From: Clostridiaceae bacterium
GTDB taxonomy: Bacteria > Bacillota > Clostridia > Clostridiales > Clostridiaceae
DNA: 34,081 nt
Direction: 5' to 3'
Assembly (NCBI GenBank): GCA_014380625.1
Contig: JACMJL010000315.1
Coordinates: 1 to 34,081, forward strand
Shown here in pieces: positions 4,904-15,805 of the stretch. Every line of letters starts with the position of its first letter. Within the stretch, counting starts at the first letter, position 1. Made by a program: the position numbers and the translations under genes. The notes beneath the pieces were generated by a model that saw only the letters and a program-made list of their open reading frames with translations, made no database searches and was not told the origin of the DNA.

Positions 4904-4937
4904 TAAAAAAAGGTATAGTGTTTTACACACTATACCT
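4904..4937 (-). terminator. Terminator of the ilv operon, overlapping the ilvB stop
   Basis: Read on the minus strand, AGGTATAGTG (4937-4928) pairs with CACTATACCT (4920-4911) around a 7-base loop and is followed by a T run (4910-4904). The 5' arm includes the last ilvB codons and its TAG stop (4932-4930). Confidence 0.9.
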
Positions 4938-6591
4938 CAAACATCATTTCAATACTTGCACCTGGTGGCACCATTGGTGAAGCCATTTCATCTGGAGCAA
5001 CTCTGAAGTCAATAACCACAGGTCCTTGCCAAGCAATTGCTTCTTTTAATGCATCCTCAACCTGGCTATTATTATTAACTCTAATACCTTTAACGCCAAA
5101 GCCTTCAGCAATTTTTACAAAGTCAGTGTCCTGCTCTAAGGTAGTACTAGAGAACCTTTTAGAGTAAAACAAGTTCTGCCATTGTCTTACCATCCCCAAA
5201 ACTCCATTATTTAATAATATTACTTTTACAGGAATATTATATCTAGAAACAGTCCCTAACTCGTTAAGATTCATTCTAAAGCTACCATCACCAGCAATAT
5301 CAAAAACCATTTCTTTCTTTCCTAAACTGGCACCTATAGCAGCTCCTAATCCATAACCCATTGTACCCAAGCCACCTGAACTAATAAAAGTTCTTGTTTT
5401 AGTATAGGTAAAGGCTTGTGTTGCCCAAATTTGGTTTTGACCTACCTCTGTAGTTATTGTAGCTTTACCTTCTGTAAGTTCACAAAGTTTTCTAATAACA
5501 TAAACAGGATTTACGGTATCAGATTCTTTTACCTTTATAACCTTTGTCTTGTCCTTTTGAATTAGTTCCCTTGCAAAAGCTGTCCACTCATTCTCTTCTC
5601 TTCCAGGAAGACCTTCTAGTAAACCCTTTAACACATCCGGTACATTTCCTATTATCCAGCTATCCGCCTTAATATTTTTTGATACTTCAGCTTCATCTAT
5701 ATCTATATGAATAACCTTGGTGTTTACTGCAAAGGTACTAGGGTCACTAATAACCCTATCACTAAATCTAGCTCCAATAGCAATAATTAAATCACTAGAA
5801 GTTATACACCGATTTGAGGCAAAAGTCCCATGCATACCTAACATTCCTGTATACATAGGGTGGAGACCGTTAAAGGCACCAAGACCCATCATTGTATTGC
5901 ACACTGGACACTTTAACTTATCTTGTAAGTCCTTTAGTACTTCCTCAGCCTCTGATATATTACACCCACCGCCTACAACAATTATTGGTTTAGAGGAGTT
6001 TTTAATGGCTTCAATGGCATACTTTAGTTGTTCTGCCTTAACAGCTTTCTGTTCTATTACCTGTGGAGTTATTGGAAAGTATTCGCCCTCTATTCCAGTT
6101 ATATCCTTAGGTATGTCTATAAGCACAGGACCAGGCCTTCCACTCATTGCAATTTTAAATGCTTTTCTTATGGTAGGCGCTAATTCCTCAATACTTTTAA
6201 CTAAAAAACTGTGTTTTGTTATTGGCATAGTTATACCAACAATATCAACCTCTTGAAATGAATCCTTCCCAATTAGCCCTGTTGCTACTTGCCCAGTAAT
6301 CGCAACCATAGGTACAGAATCCATATAAGCAGTTGCTATACCCGTCACAAGATTTGTAGCTCCAGGTCCAGAAGTAGCAAGACAGACGCCTACTTTTCCA
6401 GTTGCTCTTGCATACCCATCTGCAGCATGAGCTGCCCCTTGTTCGTGGGAAGCTAAGATATGGGTTATTCCCTGAAAAGAATAAAGCTCATCGTATATAT
6501 TTAATACGCTTCCACCTGGATACCCAAAAATTATATCGACGCCTTGTTCTTTAAGACATTCTAGTAAAATTCTTGCACCCCTGTATTTCAT
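4930..6591 (-). CDS. ilvB: Acetolactate synthase large (catalytic) subunit
   Basis: A 553-residue ThDP- and FAD-dependent enzyme that condenses two pyruvates to 2-acetolactate, or pyruvate with 2-oxobutanoate to 2-aceto-2-hydroxybutyrate. Domains run in order: N-terminal ThDP (PYR) domain with FGYPGGSVLNIYDEL and the catalytic Glu in SHEQGAAHAADGY (Glu50), central domain with GARFSDRV, and C-terminal ThDP (PP) domain with GDGSFRMNLNELGT. Length is normal. It is the last gene of the operon, 2 bases after ilvD. Its ribosome site AAGGAGGG is formed by the codons for the last residues of IlvD, so the two are probably translationally coupled. It is unusually far from its regulatory subunit gene ilvN, which is first in the operon. 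Confidence 0.96.
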   Translation of the reverse strand: MKYRGARILLECLKEQGVDIIFGYPGGSVLNIYDELYSFQGITHILASHEQGAAHAADGYARATGKVGVCLATSGPGATNLVTGIATAYMDSVPMVAITGQVATGLIGKDSFQEVDIVGITMPITKHSFLVKSIEELAPTIRKAFKIAMSGRPGPVLIDIPKDITGIEGEYFPITPQVIEQKAVKAEQLKYAIEAIKNSSKPIIVVGGGCNISEAEEVLKDLQDKLKCPVCNTMMGLGAFNGLHPMYTGMLGMHGTFASNRCITSSDLIIAIGARFSDRVISDPSTFAVNTKVIHIDIDEAEVSKNIKADSWIIGNVPDVLKGLLEGLPGREENEWTAFARELIQKDKTKVIKVKESDTVNPVYVIRKLCELTEGKATITTEVGQNQIWATQAFTYTKTRTFISSGGLGTMGYGLGAAIGASLGKKEMVFDIAGDGSFRMNLNELGTVSRYNIPVKVILLNNGVLGMVRQWQNLFYSKRFSSTTLEQDTDFVKIAEGFGVKGIRVNNNSQVEDALKEAIAWQGPVVIDFRVAPDEMASPMVPPGASIEMMFEV

Positions 6592-6593
6592 AG

Positions 6594-8258
6594 TTAATCC
6601 CTCCTTGAGTCTGGAAAAATCGCCCCTTTATTTGCTGAGGAAACAGATTTTCTATAGGTTTTTAAGTAACCCTTAGCTTCCTTCATCTTTCCCTCAGGTT
6701 TTCTTTGCTTTAATTCCTCTTCGTCTACTAATAAATTCAATATCTTATTTTCTATATCTATTTCAATTAGATCCCCATTTTTAACTAATGAGATAGGTCC
6801 ACCTTCAGCGGCTTCAGGCGAAACGTGACCAATTGAAGCTCCTCTAGTTGCACCAGAAAATCTACCATCGGTTATTAATGCAACACTTTTATCTAGCCCC
6901 ATTCCAGCTAAAGAAGCTGTAGGGGAAAGCATTTCTTTCATTCCTGGTCCACCTTTAGGTCCTTCGTATCTTATTACGACTACATCACCGGCTACTATTT
7001 TCCCACCATATATTGCCTTAGTTACTTCCTCTTCACTATCAAAAACCTTTGCAACCCCAGTATACTTCATCATTTCTGGAGCAACTGCTGATTTTTTCAC
7101 CACAGCGCCATCTGGTGCCAGTGTTCCCTTTAATACTACAAGTCCACCAGTAGAACTATATGGGTTTTCAGCAGTTCTAATTATAGCTGTATCTTTTATT
7201 TTTGCATTTTTTACATTTTCATATATTGTTTTACCTGTAACTGTCATGCAATCCTTTTTAATTAAACCCTTCTCTGCCAACACGTTCACAACCGCTGGAA
7301 TTCCACCGGCAAAATGAAGATCCTCCACATGGTGACTTCCAGCAGGACTTAACCTACAGATATTTGGAGTTCTTCCACTGATTACATTTACGTTATCTAA
7401 GTCAAAATCTATACAAGCCTCATAAGCTATTGCAGGTAAATGAAGTAAGGAATTTGTAGAACAGCCAAGAGCCATATCTGCAGTAATAGCATTTGTAAAG
7501 GCATCTGCTGTCATAATATCTCTCGGTTTTATATCTGCTTTTACCAGTTCCATTATCTGCATTCCTGCTTTTTTTGCAAGTCCTAATCTTTCTGAATAAA
7601 CTGCTGGTATCGTTCCATTAAAAGGTAAAGCCATTCCAAGAACTTCTGAAAGACAGTTCATAGAATTAGCAGTAAACATACCGGAACAAGAACCACAAGT
7701 AGGACACGCTGAATTCTCAAGTTCATCTAATTCTTCAAGAGTCATTTTACCTGAGTTTACTGAACCTACAGCCTCGAACACTGCACTTAAATCTGTAACT
7801 TTCCCATTTGTTCTACCTGCTAGCATTGGTCCACCACTAATAAATATTGATGGAACATTTAATCTAGCCGCAGCCATTAGCATTCCTGGAACAACCTTGT
7901 CACAGTTTGGTATGAAAACTAAACCATCAAAAGCATGAGCATCTCCAACTATTTCAATACTATCTGCTATTAATTGCCTTGAAGGTAGTGAGTAATTCAT
8001 TCCCATATGGCCCATAGCAATACCATCACATACAGCAATGGTTCCAAATTCAGCAGGTACTCCTCCAGCCATTCTTATGCCATCCTTAACAGCCTGAGCT
8101 ATCTTATCTAAGTTCATATGTCCTGGAATAACCTCACTATAGGAGCTAACTACACCGATAAGTGGTCTATTCATCTCTTCGTCTATAAAGCCTAACGCTT
8201 TAAAAAGTGAACGATGAGGTGCTTTTTCTACACCTTTTTTTGTAGCATCAGATTTCAT
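6594..8258 (-). CDS. ilvD: Dihydroxy-acid dehydratase
   Basis: A 554-residue iron-sulphur dehydratase that converts 2,3-dihydroxy-isovalerate and -methylvalerate to the 2-oxo acids. Cluster-ligand Cys residues are visible in [11 protein letters not shown] and [18 protein letters not shown]. Other family marks are [14 protein letters not shown] and GGPGMKEML. Length is as expected. It is preceded by AAGGAGGG 6 bases before the ATG and starts 12 bases after leuB. The gene order leuB-ilvD-ilvB is tightly packed on one transcript. Confidence 0.97.
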
Positions 8259-8270
8259 GATAATCCCTCC

Positions 8271-9338
8271 TTAAATTTGGGCTAAAACTAGTTCTCCCAT
8301 TTCTTTTGTTCCTACTCTTTTCATTCCTTCGGTGAATATATCCCCAGTTCTATAGCCTTTATTTAATACAGCCTCAACAGCTGACTCTATATCTCTGGCA
8401 GCCTGTGGCATGTTCAAAGAATACTCAAATAACATAGCACTAGATAATATTTGAGCTAACGGATTAGCTAAATCCTTACCAGCTATATCTGGCGCTGATC
8501 CATGTATGGGTTCATACATACCAAAACTATCTTCCCGAACACTGGCGGATGCTAGCATTCCTATTGACCCAGTGATCATCGAAGCCTCATCGGATAAAAT
8601 ATCACCAAACATGTTGCTTGTTAAAATAACATCAAATTGTGAAGGCTTTCTAACAAGTTGCATTGCTGTGTTATCAACATATAAATGACTTAATTCTACC
8701 TGTGGATATTCTTTAGCCACCCCTTCAACTACTTCTCTCCATAATCTTGAGGATTCAAGAATGTTTGCTTTATCTACCGAAGTAACCTTCTTCTTCCTAA
8801 GCATTGCAGCTTTAAACGCCACATGTGCTATTCTCTTTATTTCATGTACAGAATATCTTTCAGTATCATAAGCAGAACTTCCATCTTCATCTCTGCCTCT
8901 TTCTCCAAAATAAATTCCACCAGTTAATTCTCTTACCACTAAAAGATCCACACCCTCATTTATGATAGCATCTTTTAAAGGTGATGCTGCTTTTAAAACA
9001 TCATATACCTGTGCTGGTCTTAAATTCGCATATAATCCAAGACCTCCTCTTAAGCCTAAAAGTGCTTTCTCTGGTCTTCCTTCACCTGGAAGCACATCCC
9101 ACTTAGGACCTCCAACTGCACCTAAAAGCACTGCATCACTTTTTTTACATTCTTCTAAAGTTTCTACTGGTAGTGGAGTGCCAAATTCATCAATAGCACA
9201 CCCACCTGCTAAAACCTTTGTAAAATGTAATTTGGTATCATACTTAGCTGAAATCTTCTCCATTACTTTCAAGGCTTGTTCTGTTATATCCACTCCTATG
9301 CCGTCTCCAGCTATAACTGCAATTTTAAATTCTTTCAT
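8271..9338 (-). CDS. leuB: 3-isopropylmalate / methylmalate dehydrogenase
   Basis: A 355-residue NAD-dependent decarboxylating dehydrogenase. Signature segments: [15 protein letters not shown] at the N-terminus, GAVGGPKWD, substrate-binding [13 protein letters not shown], and [21 protein letters not shown]. In leucine synthesis it oxidises 3-isopropylmalate. Next to cimA it is also expected to oxidise erythro-3-methylmalate to 2-oxobutanoate in the citramalate route to isoleucine. No leuA, leuC or leuD is in this window, so the isomerase must be encoded elsewhere. The ribosome site is GGGGG before the ATG. Confidence 0.96.
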
Positions 9339-9359
9339 TTTCTTGCCCCCATTTTATCT

Positions 9360-10943
9360 TTATTTATTTATATTCACTTTTTCATCTTCAAGTAATCTAT
9401 ATTCTACGGAATCTACTAGTGCTTTCCAACTTGCTTCCACTATATCATAGGAAACTCCAACTGTTGTCCAAGTTGTATTTCCATCTGTAGATTCTATTAA
9501 AACTCTAACCTTGGCGCTAGAAGCTTTATCTCCACCTATGACTCTAACCTTATAATCAGTTAAATACATGGAGGAAATAGACGGATAAAACACACTAAGC
9601 GCTTTTCTTAGCGCTTTGTCCAGTGCATTTACCGGTCCATTTCCATCCGCAGCAGTTACTTCCAGTACTCCATTTACCTTGATTTTCATGGTAACGGTAG
9701 AACTACGATCAGTTCTGCTCGGTTCATCTATCATTACCCTATATTCAATTAATTCAAAAGAAGGTTTAAAAAGTCCTAATTCCTTAATTACCAAAAGCTC
9801 AAAACTTCCTTCTGCGCCTTCAAACTGATAACCCATATGCTCAAGTTCTTTCAATCTTTTCATTATTCTACCTGTAGCCTCAGAATCCTTGGTTACACCA
9901 GGGTCAACCTTGTTAATCATGGACATTAAGGTACTTCGTCCAGCAACCTCTGACATAAGTACAGTTCTCTCGTTGCCAACTTTTAAAGGACTAACATGTT
10001 CGAAAGAAATAGGATTTTTTTGAACCGCATCAACATGCATTCCACCCTTATGCGCAAAAGCGCAACTTCCAACATAAGCTTCTCTATCATTTGGAATGAT
10101 ATTGCTAACTTCACAAATATATCTATAGTCTGATACTAACTTATCTAAATTCTCTAATGGGATTACCTCGAAGTTCATCTTTAGCATTAGGTTAGGAATT
10201 ATAGTGCTTAAATTTGCATTTCCACAGCGTTCTCCAAGTCCGGTGAAAGTTCCTTGAACCTGCCGTACTCCAGCTTCCACTGCAATTAAGGAGTTAGCTA
10301 CTGCAGTTCCAGAGTCATTGTGACAATGAATACCTAAATTTTTAAAGCCAATACTTACCAAAAAATCCACTGTAGGTTTTATAGAACTTGGGAGAACCCC
10401 TCCATTGGTATCACAAAGTACTATCCAATCTGCTCCCGCTTCTTTTGCAGTTGACAGTACCTTAAGAGCATAATCAGAATTATTTTTGAAACCGTCAAAA
10501 AAATGTTCAGCATCAAAAATAACCTCTTTATTAAATGCTTTTAAATACTGGATGCTCTCCTTAATCATTGCTAAATTTTCTTCTAGTGTAGTTTTTATTA
10601 TTTCTGTTACATGAAAATCCCATGTCTTTCCAAAAATACAAAAAACATCTACACCTGAATCTAATAAAGCCTGTAAATTATTATCCTCTTCAACCTTTAT
10701 ATTGGCTTTCCTTGTACTTCCAAAAGCACAAAGTTTAGAATTTTTTAACTCAAGGTCTTTTACCTTTTCGAAAAATTCTGCATCCTTAGGATTTGAACCA
10801 GGGTTACCGGCTTCAATATAACTTACGCCTAATTCATCAAGTTTTTTTGTGATTTTAAGTTTATCCTTAACACTAAAGGAAATTCCTTGTGCCTGGGATC
10901 CATCTCTTAGTGTGCTATCAAAAATATACACTTTATTATTCAA
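9360..10943 (-). CDS. cimA: Citramalate synthase
   Basis: A 527-residue enzyme that joins pyruvate and acetyl-CoA to (R)-citramalate, the entry to threonine-independent isoleucine synthesis. The N-terminal TIM-barrel domain (about 1-280) has FDSTLRDGSQAQGISFSV, the metal site LGIHCHNDSGTAVANS and GTFTGLGERCGNANL. A linker and a C-terminal LeuA-type regulatory domain (about 390-520) follow, the usual site of isoleucine feedback. The RDGSQ-QGISFS start and the length of over 500 residues fit the CimA subfamily (TIGR00977 type) rather than 2-isopropylmalate synthase. The start codon is TTG with a weak GGTGG site. It is 115 bases after ilvC, with a hairpin in the gap. Confidence 0.93.
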   Translation of the reverse strand: MNNKVYIFDSTLRDGSQAQGISFSVKDKLKITKKLDELGVSYIEAGNPGSNPKDAEFFEKVKDLELKNSKLCAFGSTRKANIKVEEDNNLQALLDSGVDVFCIFGKTWDFHVTEIIKTTLEENLAMIKESIQYLKAFNKEVIFDAEHFFDGFKNNSDYALKVLSTAKEAGADWIVLCDTNGGVLPSSIKPTVDFLVSIGFKNLGIHCHNDSGTAVANSLIAVEAGVRQVQGTFTGLGERCGNANLSTIIPNLMLKMNFEVIPLENLDKLVSDYRYICEVSNIIPNDREAYVGSCAFAHKGGMHVDAVQKNPISFEHVSPLKVGNERTVLMSEVAGRSTLMSMINKVDPGVTKDSEATGRIMKRLKELEHMGYQFEGAEGSFELLVIKELGLFKPSFELIEYRVMIDEPSRTDRSSTVTMKIKVNGVLEVTAADGNGPVNALDKALRKALSVFYPSISSMYLTDYKVRVIGGDKASSAKVRVLIESTDGNTTWTTVGVSYDIVEASWKALVDSVEYRLLEDEKVNINK

Positions 10944-10980
10944 ATTTTTCCACCATCTTATAAATTCCCCCTAATCCAAG

Positions 10981-11050
10981 ATACTTAAGAAAACCAAGTT
11001 CAATTCTCCATCTTTTAGAACTTGGTTCTCCGAATTAATATATTAAGTAT
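10981..11050 (-). promoter_or_regulatory. Intercistronic two-tier hairpin between ilvC and cimA
   Basis: An inner perfect 10-bp stem (10992-11001 AACCAAGTTC with 11018-11027) sits inside an outer 8-bp stem (10981-10988 ATACTTAA with 11043-11050). On the minus strand the inner stem is followed by TTTTCTT, so it may act as a weak terminator or a processing or stability element that lowers expression of the downstream genes relative to ilvC. Confidence 0.55.
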
Positions 11051-11058
11051 TAGTTATG

Positions 11059-12063
<1,005 letters not shown>

Positions 12064-12088
12064 CTAATTATTATTTTTATTTATATTT

Positions 12089-12583
12089 TTAGATTATTGT
12101 GTCTGCACCCCTTTGCATAGCAATAAATCCACTGCTAACTATTTCTAAAATACCAAACGGCTCTATCAAGTTTTCAAAAGCACACAATTTACTATTATCT
12201 CCTGTAATTTCGATAGTTAATGTTGTTTGAGTTACATCCACAATAGAAACCCTGAAAATATTTACAATATTTATAATTTCCTGTCTGTTATTACCCTCTG
12301 CTTTAACTTTTATAAGCAAAATTTGTTTGCAAATAGAGTTTTCATTATCTAATTGGTAAACATTGTGAACATCTTCTAATTTTCTAATTTGTTTAATTAT
12401 TTGATCTATACCTTCAGCATCTTCAACTTTAGTTAATAAAGTTATTCGGGTTAATCTTTCATTTTCAGTATGACCAGAGGAAACACTCTCAATATTAAAA
12501 CCTCTTCGGTTAAATAATGCACATACTCTTGTGAGTACTCCTGGGTTGTTGTCAACTAAAATTGACAGTACATGTGAAATCAA
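12089..12583 (-). CDS. ilvN: Acetolactate synthase small (regulatory) subunit
   Basis: A 164-residue protein with an N-terminal ACT domain (HVLSILVDNNPGVLTRVCALF, RRGFNIESVSSG) and a C-terminal ALS small-subunit domain (about 80-160). It activates the catalytic subunit and confers valine feedback. The start is set at TTG 12583: GGGAGG lies 8 bases upstream. A longer reading from TTG 12604 would place that ribosome site inside the gene. First gene of the operon, with a leader of roughly 60 bases from the predicted promoter, too short for a T-box. Confidence 0.93.
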   Translation of the reverse strand: MISHVLSILVDNNPGVLTRVCALFNRRGFNIESVSSGHTENERLTRITLLTKVEDAEGIDQIIKQIRKLEDVHNVYQLDNENSICKQILLIKVKAEGNNRQEIINIVNIFRVSIVDVTQTTLTIEITGDNSKLCAFENLIEPFGILEIVSSGFIAMQRGADTII

Positions 12584-12652
12584 AAATATCGCCTCCCTTT
12601 CCAAAAGTAACTAATTCCTAGTGGATTTGTAATTCATATCAACTTTCTATGT

Positions 12653-12681
12653 ATCGTAACATCAAAAAAATAAATTGTCAA
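12653..12681 (-). promoter_or_regulatory. Sigma-A promoter of the ilv operon
   Basis: On the minus strand, TTGACA (12681-12676), a 17-base spacer and TACGAT (12658-12653). This is a consensus -35 and a good -10 at ideal spacing, about 70 bases before the ilvN start. Confidence 0.75.
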
Positions 12682-12682
12682 C

Positions 12683-12697
12683 GAAAATCAGAATATT
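12683..12697. promoter_or_regulatory. Marginal CodY-box candidate between the divergent promoters
   Basis: The 15 bases at 12683-12697 match the known CodY consensus AATTTTCWGAAAATT at 10 of 15 positions. The site lies between the -35 hexamers of the ilv and T-box promoters, where a regulator could affect both. Five mismatches make this weak. Confidence 0.25.
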
Positions 12698-12712
12698 TTT
12701 TTTATTATCACA

Positions 12713-12741
12713 TTGACATACTTTTTCATTAGTAGTATATT
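12713..12741 (+). promoter_or_regulatory. Sigma-A promoter of the tandem T-box transcript
   Basis: TTGACA (12713-12718), 17 bases, TATATT (12736-12741) on the plus strand: a near-consensus vegetative promoter. It is back to back with the ilv promoter, with 31 bases between the two -35 elements. Transcription would start near 12748 and enter the first T-box. Confidence 0.8.
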
Positions 12742-12774
12742 AGATTACAAGGAAATTTTTAATTATAATTTTAA

Positions 12775-13017
12775 AAGCTTTGATAGGGAAGAGTAATCAT
12801 TTTGGTATTCTATAAGAGAGTGGGGTTAGGAATCTAATAATTCCTTAAGGTGAAAGCCCATGAATATGAAATGAAGAAAATCACCCTGGAGCTGCAAGCT
12901 GAAATGAAGTTCAGACTTTAGGTAAGCTGTGCCGGCAGTGCCGTTATTGATTTAAGATATAAATTTGGGTGGTACCGCGAACAGACTCTCGCCCCAGGCA
13001 GGAGTGCTGTTTTTTTT
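12775..13017 (+). promoter_or_regulatory. T-box leader 1 with terminator, probable Ile (AUC) specifier
   Basis: A complete T-box leader on the plus strand. GAAGAGTAATCA near the 5' end is the stem I AGTA bulge region. A specifier segment GAAAATCACCC places codon ATC at 12880-12882, by alignment with the known GAA-A-codon-A layout of glyQS. Then come GGAGCTGC, a stem III region ending GTGCCGGCAGTGCCGTTAT, and the T-box GGGTGGTACCGCG (12967-12979). The TGGT bulge (12970-12973) would pair with a tRNA ending ACCA, as tRNA-Ile does. The terminator is ACAGACTC (12981-12988) with GAGT-G-CTGT (13002-13010) and seven T residues. No gene follows before the second leader. The orientation is unambiguous. 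Confidence 0.93.
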
Positions 13018-13040
13018 ATACAATTAAATAACTAAAATAA

Positions 13041-13313
13041 AAGCTTTGATAGGGAAGAGTAATCATTTTGATGTTCATAAGAGAGTGGGGTTAGGAATCT
13101 AATGATTCCTTAAGGTGAAAGCCCATGAATACTCAGATGAAGAAAATCACCCTGGAGCTGTAAGCTGAAAAAAGTCTTTGACTAAGATTTAAAATAAACT
13201 GACAAGTCAATGATTCTAAAGTAAGCTGTGCCGGCACTGCCGTTATTTATCAAGATATAAATTGGGTGGCACCGCGAACAGACTTCTCGCCCCAAGCGAA
13301 AGGTCTTTTTTTT
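13041..13313 (+). promoter_or_regulatory. T-box leader 2 with terminator, tandem copy
   Basis: A second T-box offset 266 bases from the first and nearly identical in its 5' half (AAGCTTTGAT at 13041, as at 12775). The specifier ATC is at 13146-13148 in the same GAAAATCACCC context. The stem III region is longer than in copy 1. The T-box reads GGGTGGCACCGCG (13264-13276), so the bulge is TGGC, not TGGT. The terminator pairs AGACTTCTCGC (13280-13290) with GCGAAAGGTCT (13296-13306), one internal mismatch, followed by T residues to 13313. The next gene, aroK, is on the opposite strand, so no conventional target is downstream. Confidence 0.92.
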
Positions 13314-13404
13314 ATGCAAAATATTATTGATTTTTATCCTTCTGAGTAATAGTTAATTGGGGAATTGAATTTTACTTAGATTTATATTTAAAAAATATGA
13401 TAAT

Positions 13405-13430
13405 AAAAAACAACCACATTACTGCAGTTG
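13405..13430 (-). terminator. Terminator of the aro operon, with the aroK stop in its loop
   Basis: On the minus strand CAACTGCA (13430-13423), loop GTAA, TGTGGTTG (13418-13411), then a T run (13410-13405). The stem has two G-T pairs. The TAA stop of aroK (13421-13419) lies in the loop. Confidence 0.8.
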
Positions 13431-13919
13431 CCCAAGAATATCAATTATCTTATTAATTACTTCCTCTTCATTACCGTCATTAACCACAATAATATCACTA
13501 TACTTTTTATACAGAGGATCCCTTGATTCATACATTTCATATAAATTTGTTTTGTTGTTCTTTAGAAGTGGTCTATTTGTGTCATCGATGTCCTTAAGAA
13601 TCATTTCTACTGGGCGATCAATGTATATTACAATACTATTTTTTTTAAGCTCTTTCATGTTAACTTCGTTTTTAATTACTCCTCCACCTGTGGATATTAT
13701 ACAATTTGTGTTTTTAGATACCTTTAAAACTGCATGGCTCTCTATATCTCTAAAGTGGACTTCGCCTTTATTAAAGATTTCTGAAATACTTTTACCTTGA
13801 GTTTTTTCGATATATAAATCTATATCTATTAGTTCTTTATTCAATGCTTTTGAAAGTGCTTTACCTATGGTTGTTTTCCCAGATCCTGACATCCCTATTA
13901 ACACTATATTCTTATTCAT
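13419..13919 (-). CDS. aroK: Shikimate kinase
   Basis: A 166-residue P-loop kinase that phosphorylates shikimate at the 3-hydroxyl. The Walker A is GMSGSGKTT (residues 9-17), the substrate/Mg Asp is in IDIDLYIE (Asp32/Asp34), shikimate-binding Arg is in VHFRDIES (about Arg57), STGGGVIK supplies the Gly triplet, and TNRPLLKN is the lid with its Arg. Length is typical. The ATG overlaps the aroE stop by 8 bases (ATGAATAA), so translation is probably coupled. Last gene of aroB-aroE-aroK. Its 3' end faces the oncoming T-box transcript. Confidence 0.95.
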   Translation of the reverse strand: MNKNIVLIGMSGSGKTTIGKALSKALNKELIDIDLYIEKTQGKSISEIFNKGEVHFRDIESHAVLKVSKNTNCIISTGGGVIKNEVNMKELKKNSIVIYIDRPVEMILKDIDDTNRPLLKNNKTNLYEMYESRDPLYKKYSDIIVVNDGNEEEVINKIIDILGQLQ

Positions 13920-14727
13920 AGAAATTCGACCTTAAATTAGAATATATTTTTTCAACCACCTGTTTTTCAATAATGATATTATTCCATAATTCTTCTGCTA
14001 CAATCGCTTGACCAACTAACATATATAGACCATTTACACTCTTACAACCACTGTCTTTTGCCGTCTTTAAAAATAAAGTCTCAAAGGGATTGTAGATTAA
14101 ATCAACTGCAGCTTGAAATTTACTAAGAATATTTTTACCTACTGGAGTAGCATTTAAATTAGGGTACATTCCTAATGGTGTGGTATTTATGATTAAATCA
14201 CCCTTAGGATTTTTACTTAATTCACTATAATCAATAGTCTTGTAATCCTTATTTGAGGATTTTTCGGATAAGTTCCTAGTTACTACAGTTATTTTAGCTG
14301 ACCCTTTATCTAAAACATACTGAATCACCGCTTTAGAACTACCTCCGGTTCCAAGAACTACAATTTCTTTATTTTTTATATCGATTTCAAATTTGTCTAA
14401 GAGCATTCCAAACCCATAATAATCGGTGTTATACCCTATTGCAATTTCATCCCTAAAACAAATTGTATTCACGGCACCTATTCTTCTAGCTTCTTCAGAA
14501 ATATTATCTAAGTAAGCCATTATATCTATCTTAAAGGGTATTGTCACATTAACTCCAGAAGATCCTAAATACTTAAGACCATAGACAACCTCTTTTAGTC
14601 TTTCTTTTTTTACCTGAAATAGTTGGTAAGTAGCCTGTTCTTTTAGTTCTTCAAAAACCAAATTATGTATCTGAGGAGATATGCTATGTCCAAGCTTTTC
14701 TCCAAGTAATCCGTAAAACTTACCCAA
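13912..14727 (-). CDS. aroE: Shikimate 5-dehydrogenase
   Basis: A 271-residue NADPH enzyme that reduces 3-dehydroshikimate. N-terminal substrate domain: YGLLGEKLGHSISPQIHN and the catalytic Lys in VNVTIPFKIDIM, then AVNTICF and YNTDYYGF. The Rossmann domain has VLGTGGSSKAVIQY; the family C-terminal QAIVAEELW is present. The start is set at TTG 14727, 8 bases from GGAG. The TTG at 14733 is in frame but touches the ribosome site. It follows aroB closely and overlaps aroK. Confidence 0.94.
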   Translation of the reverse strand: MGKFYGLLGEKLGHSISPQIHNLVFEELKEQATYQLFQVKKERLKEVVYGLKYLGSSGVNVTIPFKIDIMAYLDNISEEARRIGAVNTICFRDEIAIGYNTDYYGFGMLLDKFEIDIKNKEIVVLGTGGSSKAVIQYVLDKGSAKITVVTRNLSEKSSNKDYKTIDYSELSKNPKGDLIINTTPLGMYPNLNATPVGKNILSKFQAAVDLIYNPFETLFLKTAKDSGCKSVNGLYMLVGQAIVAEELWNNIIIEKQVVEKIYSNLRSNFYE

Positions 14728-14743
14728 ATTCAACTCTCCTTTC

Positions 14744-15805
14744 CTATATATATTCCTTTATATTATTAAAGTCAATTTCCTTTATAAAAGCATTTCCTAT
14801 AGATTTAAGCAAAATCAGGCTTATGTTATTTCTACTTTTCTTTTTATCTCTAGAAATTATATCTATAATATCATTTGAGGTTAAGTTATCTACAGACCAA
14901 GGTAATTCATATTTTATTAATATTTCTTTTATTTTATTAGCGGATCCTTTTTCAGTAATCCCCAGTTGCTCACTTTTACTGGTGATCCAATACATACCTA
15001 TGGCTACCCCTTCTCCATGGGTATATTTTGTATAATTAAAGTATTGCTCTATACCATGGCCAATGGTATGTCCAAAATTTAAAATCATTCTTTCGCCTAG
15101 ATCTTTTTCATCTCTTTCCACAATATTTCTTTTAATATCGCAACAAGTATAAATAATCTCTTCTATATTATTAAGCAAGTCTTCATCACTATTAAAATTA
15201 AAAAGTTTATTAAAGAGTTCTTCATCTTTAAATGCTCCATACTTTATAGTTTCAGCCATACCATCATGTAAAAAGGTTTTTGGTAAGGTCTTTAAAAGTT
15301 CAGGATCTATAAAGACAGCTACTGGATGATAAAAACTCCCTACCAGATTCTTCCCACTTTCCAAATCTATTGCCACCTTGCCCCCAACAGAGCTATCAAC
15401 CTGTGCTAGTAAGGAAGTGGGGCACTGTAGATATGGCACTCCTCTTAAAAAGGTTGAAGCAGCGAATCCACCAAGATCTCCAACTACCCCACCGCCAAAG
15501 GTTATTATTAAATCTGACCTTGTAATATTATAATGGACTAAAGAAGAATATATCTTCTCTAACTCTTTTAATGACTTACTAGTTTCACCTGGTTCTATCA
15601 CATGCATACCAACTTCATAACCACTACTTTTTAAATTATTATTAAGCAGCTCTCCGTAAATTCTCTGAAGATTTCTATCTGTAATTATAAATAGCTTTTT
15701 TCCATCATATATATTTTTTATCATTTCTCCAATTTTATTTAAGCAACCATTTTCAATTTTTATTTCATAATTTTTATCTGGTATATTCACCTTAATATTT
15801 TTCAA
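14744..15805 (-). CDS. aroB: 3-dehydroquinate synthase
   Basis: A 353-residue NAD- and Zn-dependent enzyme that cyclises DAHP to 3-dehydroquinate. Signature segments: EPGETSKSLKELEKIY, TFGGGVVGDLGGFAASTFLRGVP split across the NAD loop, PTSLLAQVDSSVGGKVAID, and metal-binding His residues in NFGHTIGHGIEQ and THGEGVAIGMYW. Length is typical. The start codon is TTG (15803-15805) with AAGGGG 10 bases upstream. First gene of the aro operon; a long perfect dyad overlaps its predicted promoter. Confidence 0.95.
   Translation of the reverse strand: MKNIKVNIPDKNYEIKIENGCLNKIGEMIKNIYDGKKLFIITDRNLQRIYGELLNNNLKSSGYEVGMHVIEPGETSKSLKELEKIYSSLVHYNITRSDLIITFGGGVVGDLGGFAASTFLRGVPYLQCPTSLLAQVDSSVGGKVAIDLESGKNLVGSFYHPVAVFIDPELLKTLPKTFLHDGMAETIKYGAFKDEELFNKLFNFNSDEDLLNNIEEIIYTCCDIKRNIVERDEKDLGERMILNFGHTIGHGIEQYFNYTKYTHGEGVAIGMYWITSKSEQLGITEKGSANKIKEILIKYELPWSVDNLTSNDIIDIISRDKKKSRNNISLILLKSIGNAFIKEIDFNNIKEYI

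Follow-up and report, generated by a model that had tools for sequence, protein, structure and literature searches.

The window analysed here, a stretch of 34,081 nucleotides from a Clostridiaceae bacterium, contains two isoleucine T-boxes in tandem on the plus strand, which point towards the 3′ end of a shikimate (aro) operon that converges on them. This arrangement had been described in an earlier note on the same DNA and is confirmed by Rfam matches, open reading frames (ORFs) and the AUC specifiers. It raises the question of what the two leaders control, or once controlled, and of whether they form an isoleucine-controlled antisense circuit that couples two amino acid pathways, as the note had proposed. 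The features concerned are the following.

12089–12604, minus strand: ilvN, divergent neighbour of the leader; it opens the ilvN-ilvC-cimA-leuB-ilvD-ilvB operon (4930–12604)
12713–12741, plus strand: promoter-like element of the T-box leader (TTGACA, 17 nt, TATATT; 11 of 12 consensus positions matched)
12771–12999, plus strand: T-box 1 (Rfam RF00230, 100.2 bits, cut-off 93)
12978–13017, plus strand: intrinsic terminator of T-box 1 (hairpin 12978–13012, −16.1 kcal/mol, z −2.7, T-run after it)
13037–13297, plus strand: T-box 2 (RF00230, 88.2 bits, under the cut-off of 93, E 7e-19, long insertion)
13279–13313, plus strand: intrinsic terminator of T-box 2 (hairpin 13279–13307, −11.4 kcal/mol, z −2.7, T-run to 13313)
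13340–13389, plus strand: weak hairpin, a possible partial terminator before aroK (−12.7 kcal/mol, z −2.3, U-rich tail)
13408–13433, minus strand: intrinsic terminator of the aro operon (−10.7 kcal/mol, z −3.4, T-run on the minus strand only)
13419–13919, minus strand: aroK, shikimate kinase (Pfam SKI, 6.9e-45)
13912–14733, minus strand: aroE, shikimate dehydrogenase (TIGR00507, 225.3 bits, cut-off 200.2)
14744–15805, minus strand: aroB, 3-dehydroquinate synthase (TIGR01357, 371.2 bits, cut-off 305)

In both T-boxes, the specifier loop holds a specifier codon, the antiterminator bulge shows UGGN and an intrinsic terminator competes with the antiterminator. The specifier is read in both as ...GAAAAUCACCC, AUC being an isoleucine codon, and the T-box sequence is UGGU in T-box 1 and UGGC in T-box 2. 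Only T-box 1 reaches the curated RF00230 cut-off; its 100.2 bits stand against 100.8, 101.1 and 113.6 bits for T-boxes of relatives. The key motifs are kept in both copies, and decay is not visible. A promoter scan that accepted 9 or more of 12 positions returned 54 matches with 54 expected and is no proof by itself, while DNA comparison finds the promoter-bearing region 12600–12761 in seven relatives at 78–82% identity. With a predicted promoter and two T-boxes that look undamaged, the leader probably still yields short terminated RNAs. What the leader lacks is a target, as no co-transcribed amino acid gene follows 12771–13297 on the same strand, and no plus-strand ORF of at least 80 aa occurs after the T-boxes before 17822, save an 82-aa ORF antisense to aroK.

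The ilvN/T-box DNA was searched against 206 genomes of the family, 17 of them from genus g24. The promoter region was found in eight genomes, all of which belong to g24, a genus other than that of the window; they include Clostridium algoriphilum (G132), C. frigoris (G138), C. lacusfryxellense (G139) and Clostridium sp. DSM 17811 (G137). In seven of the eight (G132, G134 and G136–G140), a LeuC frame lies downstream in the direction of the T-box, at most about 0.5 kb away from the matching DNA, with gene-by-gene reading in C. algoriphilum (L059) and G134. The order in C. algoriphilum is leuC-leuD-leuB, followed by a second T-box and leuA. T-box 1, terminator included, is 82% identical at the DNA level to the C. 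algoriphilum leader and 80% identical to that of C. lacusfryxellense (L062), and ilvN is 79–82% identical to that of four genomes of the C. estertheticum group. In the eighth genome (G142), where the divergent region has been rearranged, an isoleucine T-box points the same way as ilvC and leads it, and leuC is located on a separate contig behind a CUU (Leu) T-box.

Several further features of these loci were observed. In G142 (L150 1500–3066, contig C321), the isoleucine T-box and its promoter precede ilvC; this place lacks ilvN, and what separates the T-box from ilvC is the former ilvN promoter region. The ilv operon of the window (4930–12604) carries the citramalate synthase gene cimA (TIGR00977) and leuB, and its gene order is nearer to that of C. 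hydrogenum than to that of C. algoriphilum. The specifier of the leuCDB T-box is AUC (Ile) in C. algoriphilum (L059 9600–9808) and C. lacusfryxellense (L062 9615–9823) and CUU (Leu) in DSM 17811, C. frigoris, G134 and G140 (L058, L060, L152 and L154), and both kinds share the same ilvN-divergent site. The difference may represent a change of the sensed amino acid, since LeuCD and LeuB can also serve the citramalate route to isoleucine. A CodY-like site between the divergent promoters agreed with the consensus at 12 of 15 positions in C. algoriphilum and at best at 10 of 15 in the window, and is not claimed.

The two T-boxes differ in their relationships to these leaders. The 5′ half of T-box 2 is nearly a copy of T-box 1, the two sharing three repeats (55, 39 and 34 nt) at 95–98% identity, and its 3′ half is 90% identical to the G142 T-box before ilvC (L150), with UGGC common to both. 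A 20-nt insertion in stem I is present in T-box 1 as well as T-box 2 and absent from all seven aligned relatives. This pattern suggests that T-box 2 is a hybrid or gene-converted copy that arose in this lineage. Homology of T-box 1 to the C. algoriphilum and C. lacusfryxellense leaders stops at 13025–13030, and that of T-box 2 to G142 stops at 13321, directly past the second terminator, which marks the break point. Between 13316 and 13425, only short AT-rich matches were found to any of the loci examined.

The leu genes of the relatives have left no trace beside the leader: no relic of leuC or leuD was detected in the window (best E 0.58), and none of leuCDB either. The window's genome (4.37 Mb, 338 contigs, 81% complete, alone in its genus among the genomes compared) contains no LeuC of the relatives' type (TIGR02083) in its assembly, the best match over most of the length being 33%. 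Contig C56 (L242 57–2499) encodes a LeuC of another type (TIGR00170, 768 bits, cut-off 560), divergent from a LysR-type gene, and this type was found in none of nine relatives searched. Given this other LeuC and the leuB within the ilv operon, we infer that the genes formerly behind the T-boxes may have become dispensable in this incomplete genome, although the relatives' leuCD type could be located in the missing part of the 81% complete assembly.

We consider it likely that the T-boxes stem from a 5′ leader that once preceded leuC-leuD-leuB and was duplicated and then stranded, and that any antisense transcription is incidental rather than an evolved circuit. The starting state would have been a leuC-leuD-leuB leader divergent from ilvN, which gained a second isoleucine T-box in this lineage; the structural genes would then have been lost via a rearrangement with its break directly after the second terminator, leaving the convergent aro operon as the next neighbour. 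If isoleucine starvation is severe, a fraction of the transcripts may get beyond the two terminators and run antisense to aroK, and such RNA would be a by-product of the rearrangement. The anatomy of the leader, the gene order of the relatives, the position of the break and the lack of leuCDB next to the leader are direct observations; gene loss would account for the orphan state, and the transcripts themselves are predicted. Undecayed T-boxes fit a recent loss but also a retained function, and the T-box/aro junction is seen in one assembly.

T-boxes without a gene are uncommon in the genomes inspected. In the window's genome, a co-directional ORF follows 21 of 26 T-box matches (20 by script and L022 by reading ORFs); the other five comprise the window pair, two T-boxes at the ends of contigs and one before an ORF on the opposite strand. 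All 15 T-boxes inspected in C. algoriphilum (24 matches in all) and all 15 inspected in G202 (30 matches in all) are co-directional with a gene, one of the inspected T-boxes (L227) being settled by reading. On a short contig of the window's genome (L004, contig C254), a T-box at the start is followed by an opposite-strand ORF that is transposase-like by eye, which makes it a second candidate stranded T-box.

The explanation closest to the earlier note, which we consider unlikely, is that uncharged tRNA-Ile opens both T-boxes and that the resulting long plus-strand RNA lowers expression of aroK-aroE-aroB, by duplex formation or polymerase collision. The geometry suits it, because the T-boxes and the aro operon are convergent and the aroK stop lies 122 nt beyond the end of T-box 2, within the 500 nt from a convergent target that a survey of antisense riboswitches allows (PMC9943018). 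The T-boxes are intact, the promoter is good, and two worked precedents of antisense-acting riboswitches are given in the survey (PMC9943018). A second aro copy was considered and rejected: the AroB of a relative, used as a query, matches only the window copy in the 81% complete genome. As a separate observation, aroB-aroE-aroK is compact at 13419–15805, whereas aroB and aroE are about 2.8–3.6 kb apart in five of six family genomes read, G020 being a family genome in which they are adjacent.

How much RNA would reach the aro genes depends on termination. The note was right that T residues follow the aro terminator on the minus strand alone. No strong plus-strand terminator was found past 13313, either by a pattern scan or by a fold-based scan, the latter added because the pattern scan missed both T-box terminators as well. 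The picture differs from the note in one respect, the weak hairpin at 13340–13389, which may stop part of the transcription. Only 3 of 200 shuffles fold as well as its 13340–13381 portion, and its U-rich tail is imperfect; it could halt some read-through ahead of the aroK stop codon. Three hairpins of −8 kcal/mol or lower with a T-rich tail occur in 13316–15805, which is not clearly above the density in 12 shuffles (0–4, mean about 0.9), so that the one before aroK is at most a partial terminator.

Any RNA that passes 13313 would first require antitermination at both T-boxes in series. UGGU is present in 22 of 23 other T-boxes with an isoleucine specifier, a set gathered by pattern and so incomplete, and UGGC occurs among them only in G142. 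Because tRNA-Ile has A at position 73, the UGGC of T-box 2 would pair less well with it. Taking UGGC as a sign that T-box 2 is decaying was considered and is weakened by G142, which has UGGC together with AUC before ilvC. In addition, an RNA antisense to aro would be untranslated and exposed to Rho. Read-through past both terminators is expected to be slight.

Comparison with relatives weighs further against a circuit. The T-box/aro arrangement was seen in no other genome, and it occurs in none of the eight sharing the leader region (seven with leuC, one with ilvC), so that the conservation looked for in antisense riboswitches is absent and the usual target of the leader is leuC. Together with the homology break after T-box 2, the serial terminators, the rare UGGC and the weak hairpin before aroK, this leaves the proposed isoleucine-controlled coupling of two pathways unsupported. 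We know of no metabolic link between tRNA-Ile charging and the shikimate enzymes. T-boxes as a class have no antisense tendency in Table 1 of the survey (107 antisense versus 15,851 sense, P = 1.00 for enrichment; PMC9943018), and its tandem antisense cases involve transposases, ABC transporters and a single small hypothetical gene, with no aro gene among them. In the same survey, 292 cases were retained on the basis of a metabolic link between the sensed molecule and the target (PMC9943018). Antisense RNA under isoleucine starvation is possible but looks incidental, and it is improbable that the tandem pair now serves as an antisense switch by which starvation acts on the shikimate operon. 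Were it so, it would be the first worked example, within the literature searched, of a tRNA-controlled antisense RNA joining two amino acid families, as no worked T-box antisense case was found there.

An assembly or binning artefact, in which the ilv/T-box half was wrongly joined to the aro half of a metagenome-style assembly, is quite unlikely. The 338 contigs and 81% completeness would allow it, and the two halves may differ in history, with AroB at most 61% identical to that of any other genome searched, against 85% between two g24 species, and ilvC 90–94% identical to that of the C. estertheticum group in g24. The AroB contrast loses force when other genera are considered: AroB of the window is 56–57% identical to that of the C. 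estertheticum group, compared with 55–58% between two other genera and mostly 55–62% between other genera in general. Because distances between other genera are similar, the aro genes may be native, and by the same protein comparisons the ilv block may be of closer kinship to g24. The nearest match of iorA is in C. algoriphilum (87%), and the proteins encoded next to the remaining T-boxes of this genome show 64–81% identity to those of C. algoriphilum where orthologue-like. In the ilvN tree, the window lies outside the g24 group with full support, and the ilvC and ilvB trees are without resolution. A clear transfer of the ilv block from the g24 group, which would make the locus a cross-species chimera, was dropped after iorA, aroB and the ilvC, ilvN and ilvB trees had been considered. 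GC3 is similar on both sides of the junction. Misassembly at the junction is unlikely because 13316–13420 contains no repeat and the assembly has no second close copy of the T-box DNA, the sole other match being 53 nt at 80%.

It is very improbable that the leader RNAs function without a downstream gene, for example as short terminated RNAs that bind uncharged tRNA-Ile: a good promoter followed by a pair of intact T-boxes, neither of which has a gene to regulate, would suit this, but the gene-less arrangement is not conserved and no precedent was found in the literature searched.

If the stranded-leader reading is correct, the locus offers a snapshot of a riboswitch that has outlived its operon, with the intact state visible in the relatives, and stray T-boxes of this kind are probably one source of the antisense riboswitch candidates in genome surveys. 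If antisense control were true instead, uncharged tRNA would govern a second pathway by antisense, a logic so far seen only for small-molecule riboswitches.

Among the closest known systems is the leuCDB leader of the C. estertheticum group (L058–L060, L062 and G134), which has an isoleucine or leucine T-box in the same ilvN-divergent promoter region; there, one T-box is followed by leuC-leuD-leuB, whereas the window has two T-boxes and no leu genes. With regard to antisense systems, Andre et al. reportedly described in 2008 the ubiG-mccBA operon of C. acetobutylicum with its antisense S-box. The comparison with this operon made in the earlier note is apt in geometry, as there too a riboswitch is placed where a convergent biosynthetic operon ends, but not in logic: as cited in the survey, SAM belongs to the very pathway that the ubiG operon serves, and antisense RNA is reported (PMC9943018), whereas the window pairs tRNA-Ile with the shikimate pathway and its antisense RNA is predicted. 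The cobalamin riboswitch antisense to pocR in Listeria monocytogenes, as summarized in the same survey (PMC9943018), has a similar 3′-end antisense geometry, and its ligand and target are metabolically linked, whereas we know of no such link for the window. T-boxes have been catalogued in C. difficile (PMC11477304), and tandem T-boxes are described as enriched on branched-chain genes in Bacillota (PMC12452182). The window resembles the tandem leaders of the latter account in having two complete T-boxes with their own terminators in a branched-chain context, leuC, ilvC and ilvN being among the targets listed; it differs from them in that no co-directional gene follows and in that both T-boxes carry an isoleucine specifier, one of them with UGGC.
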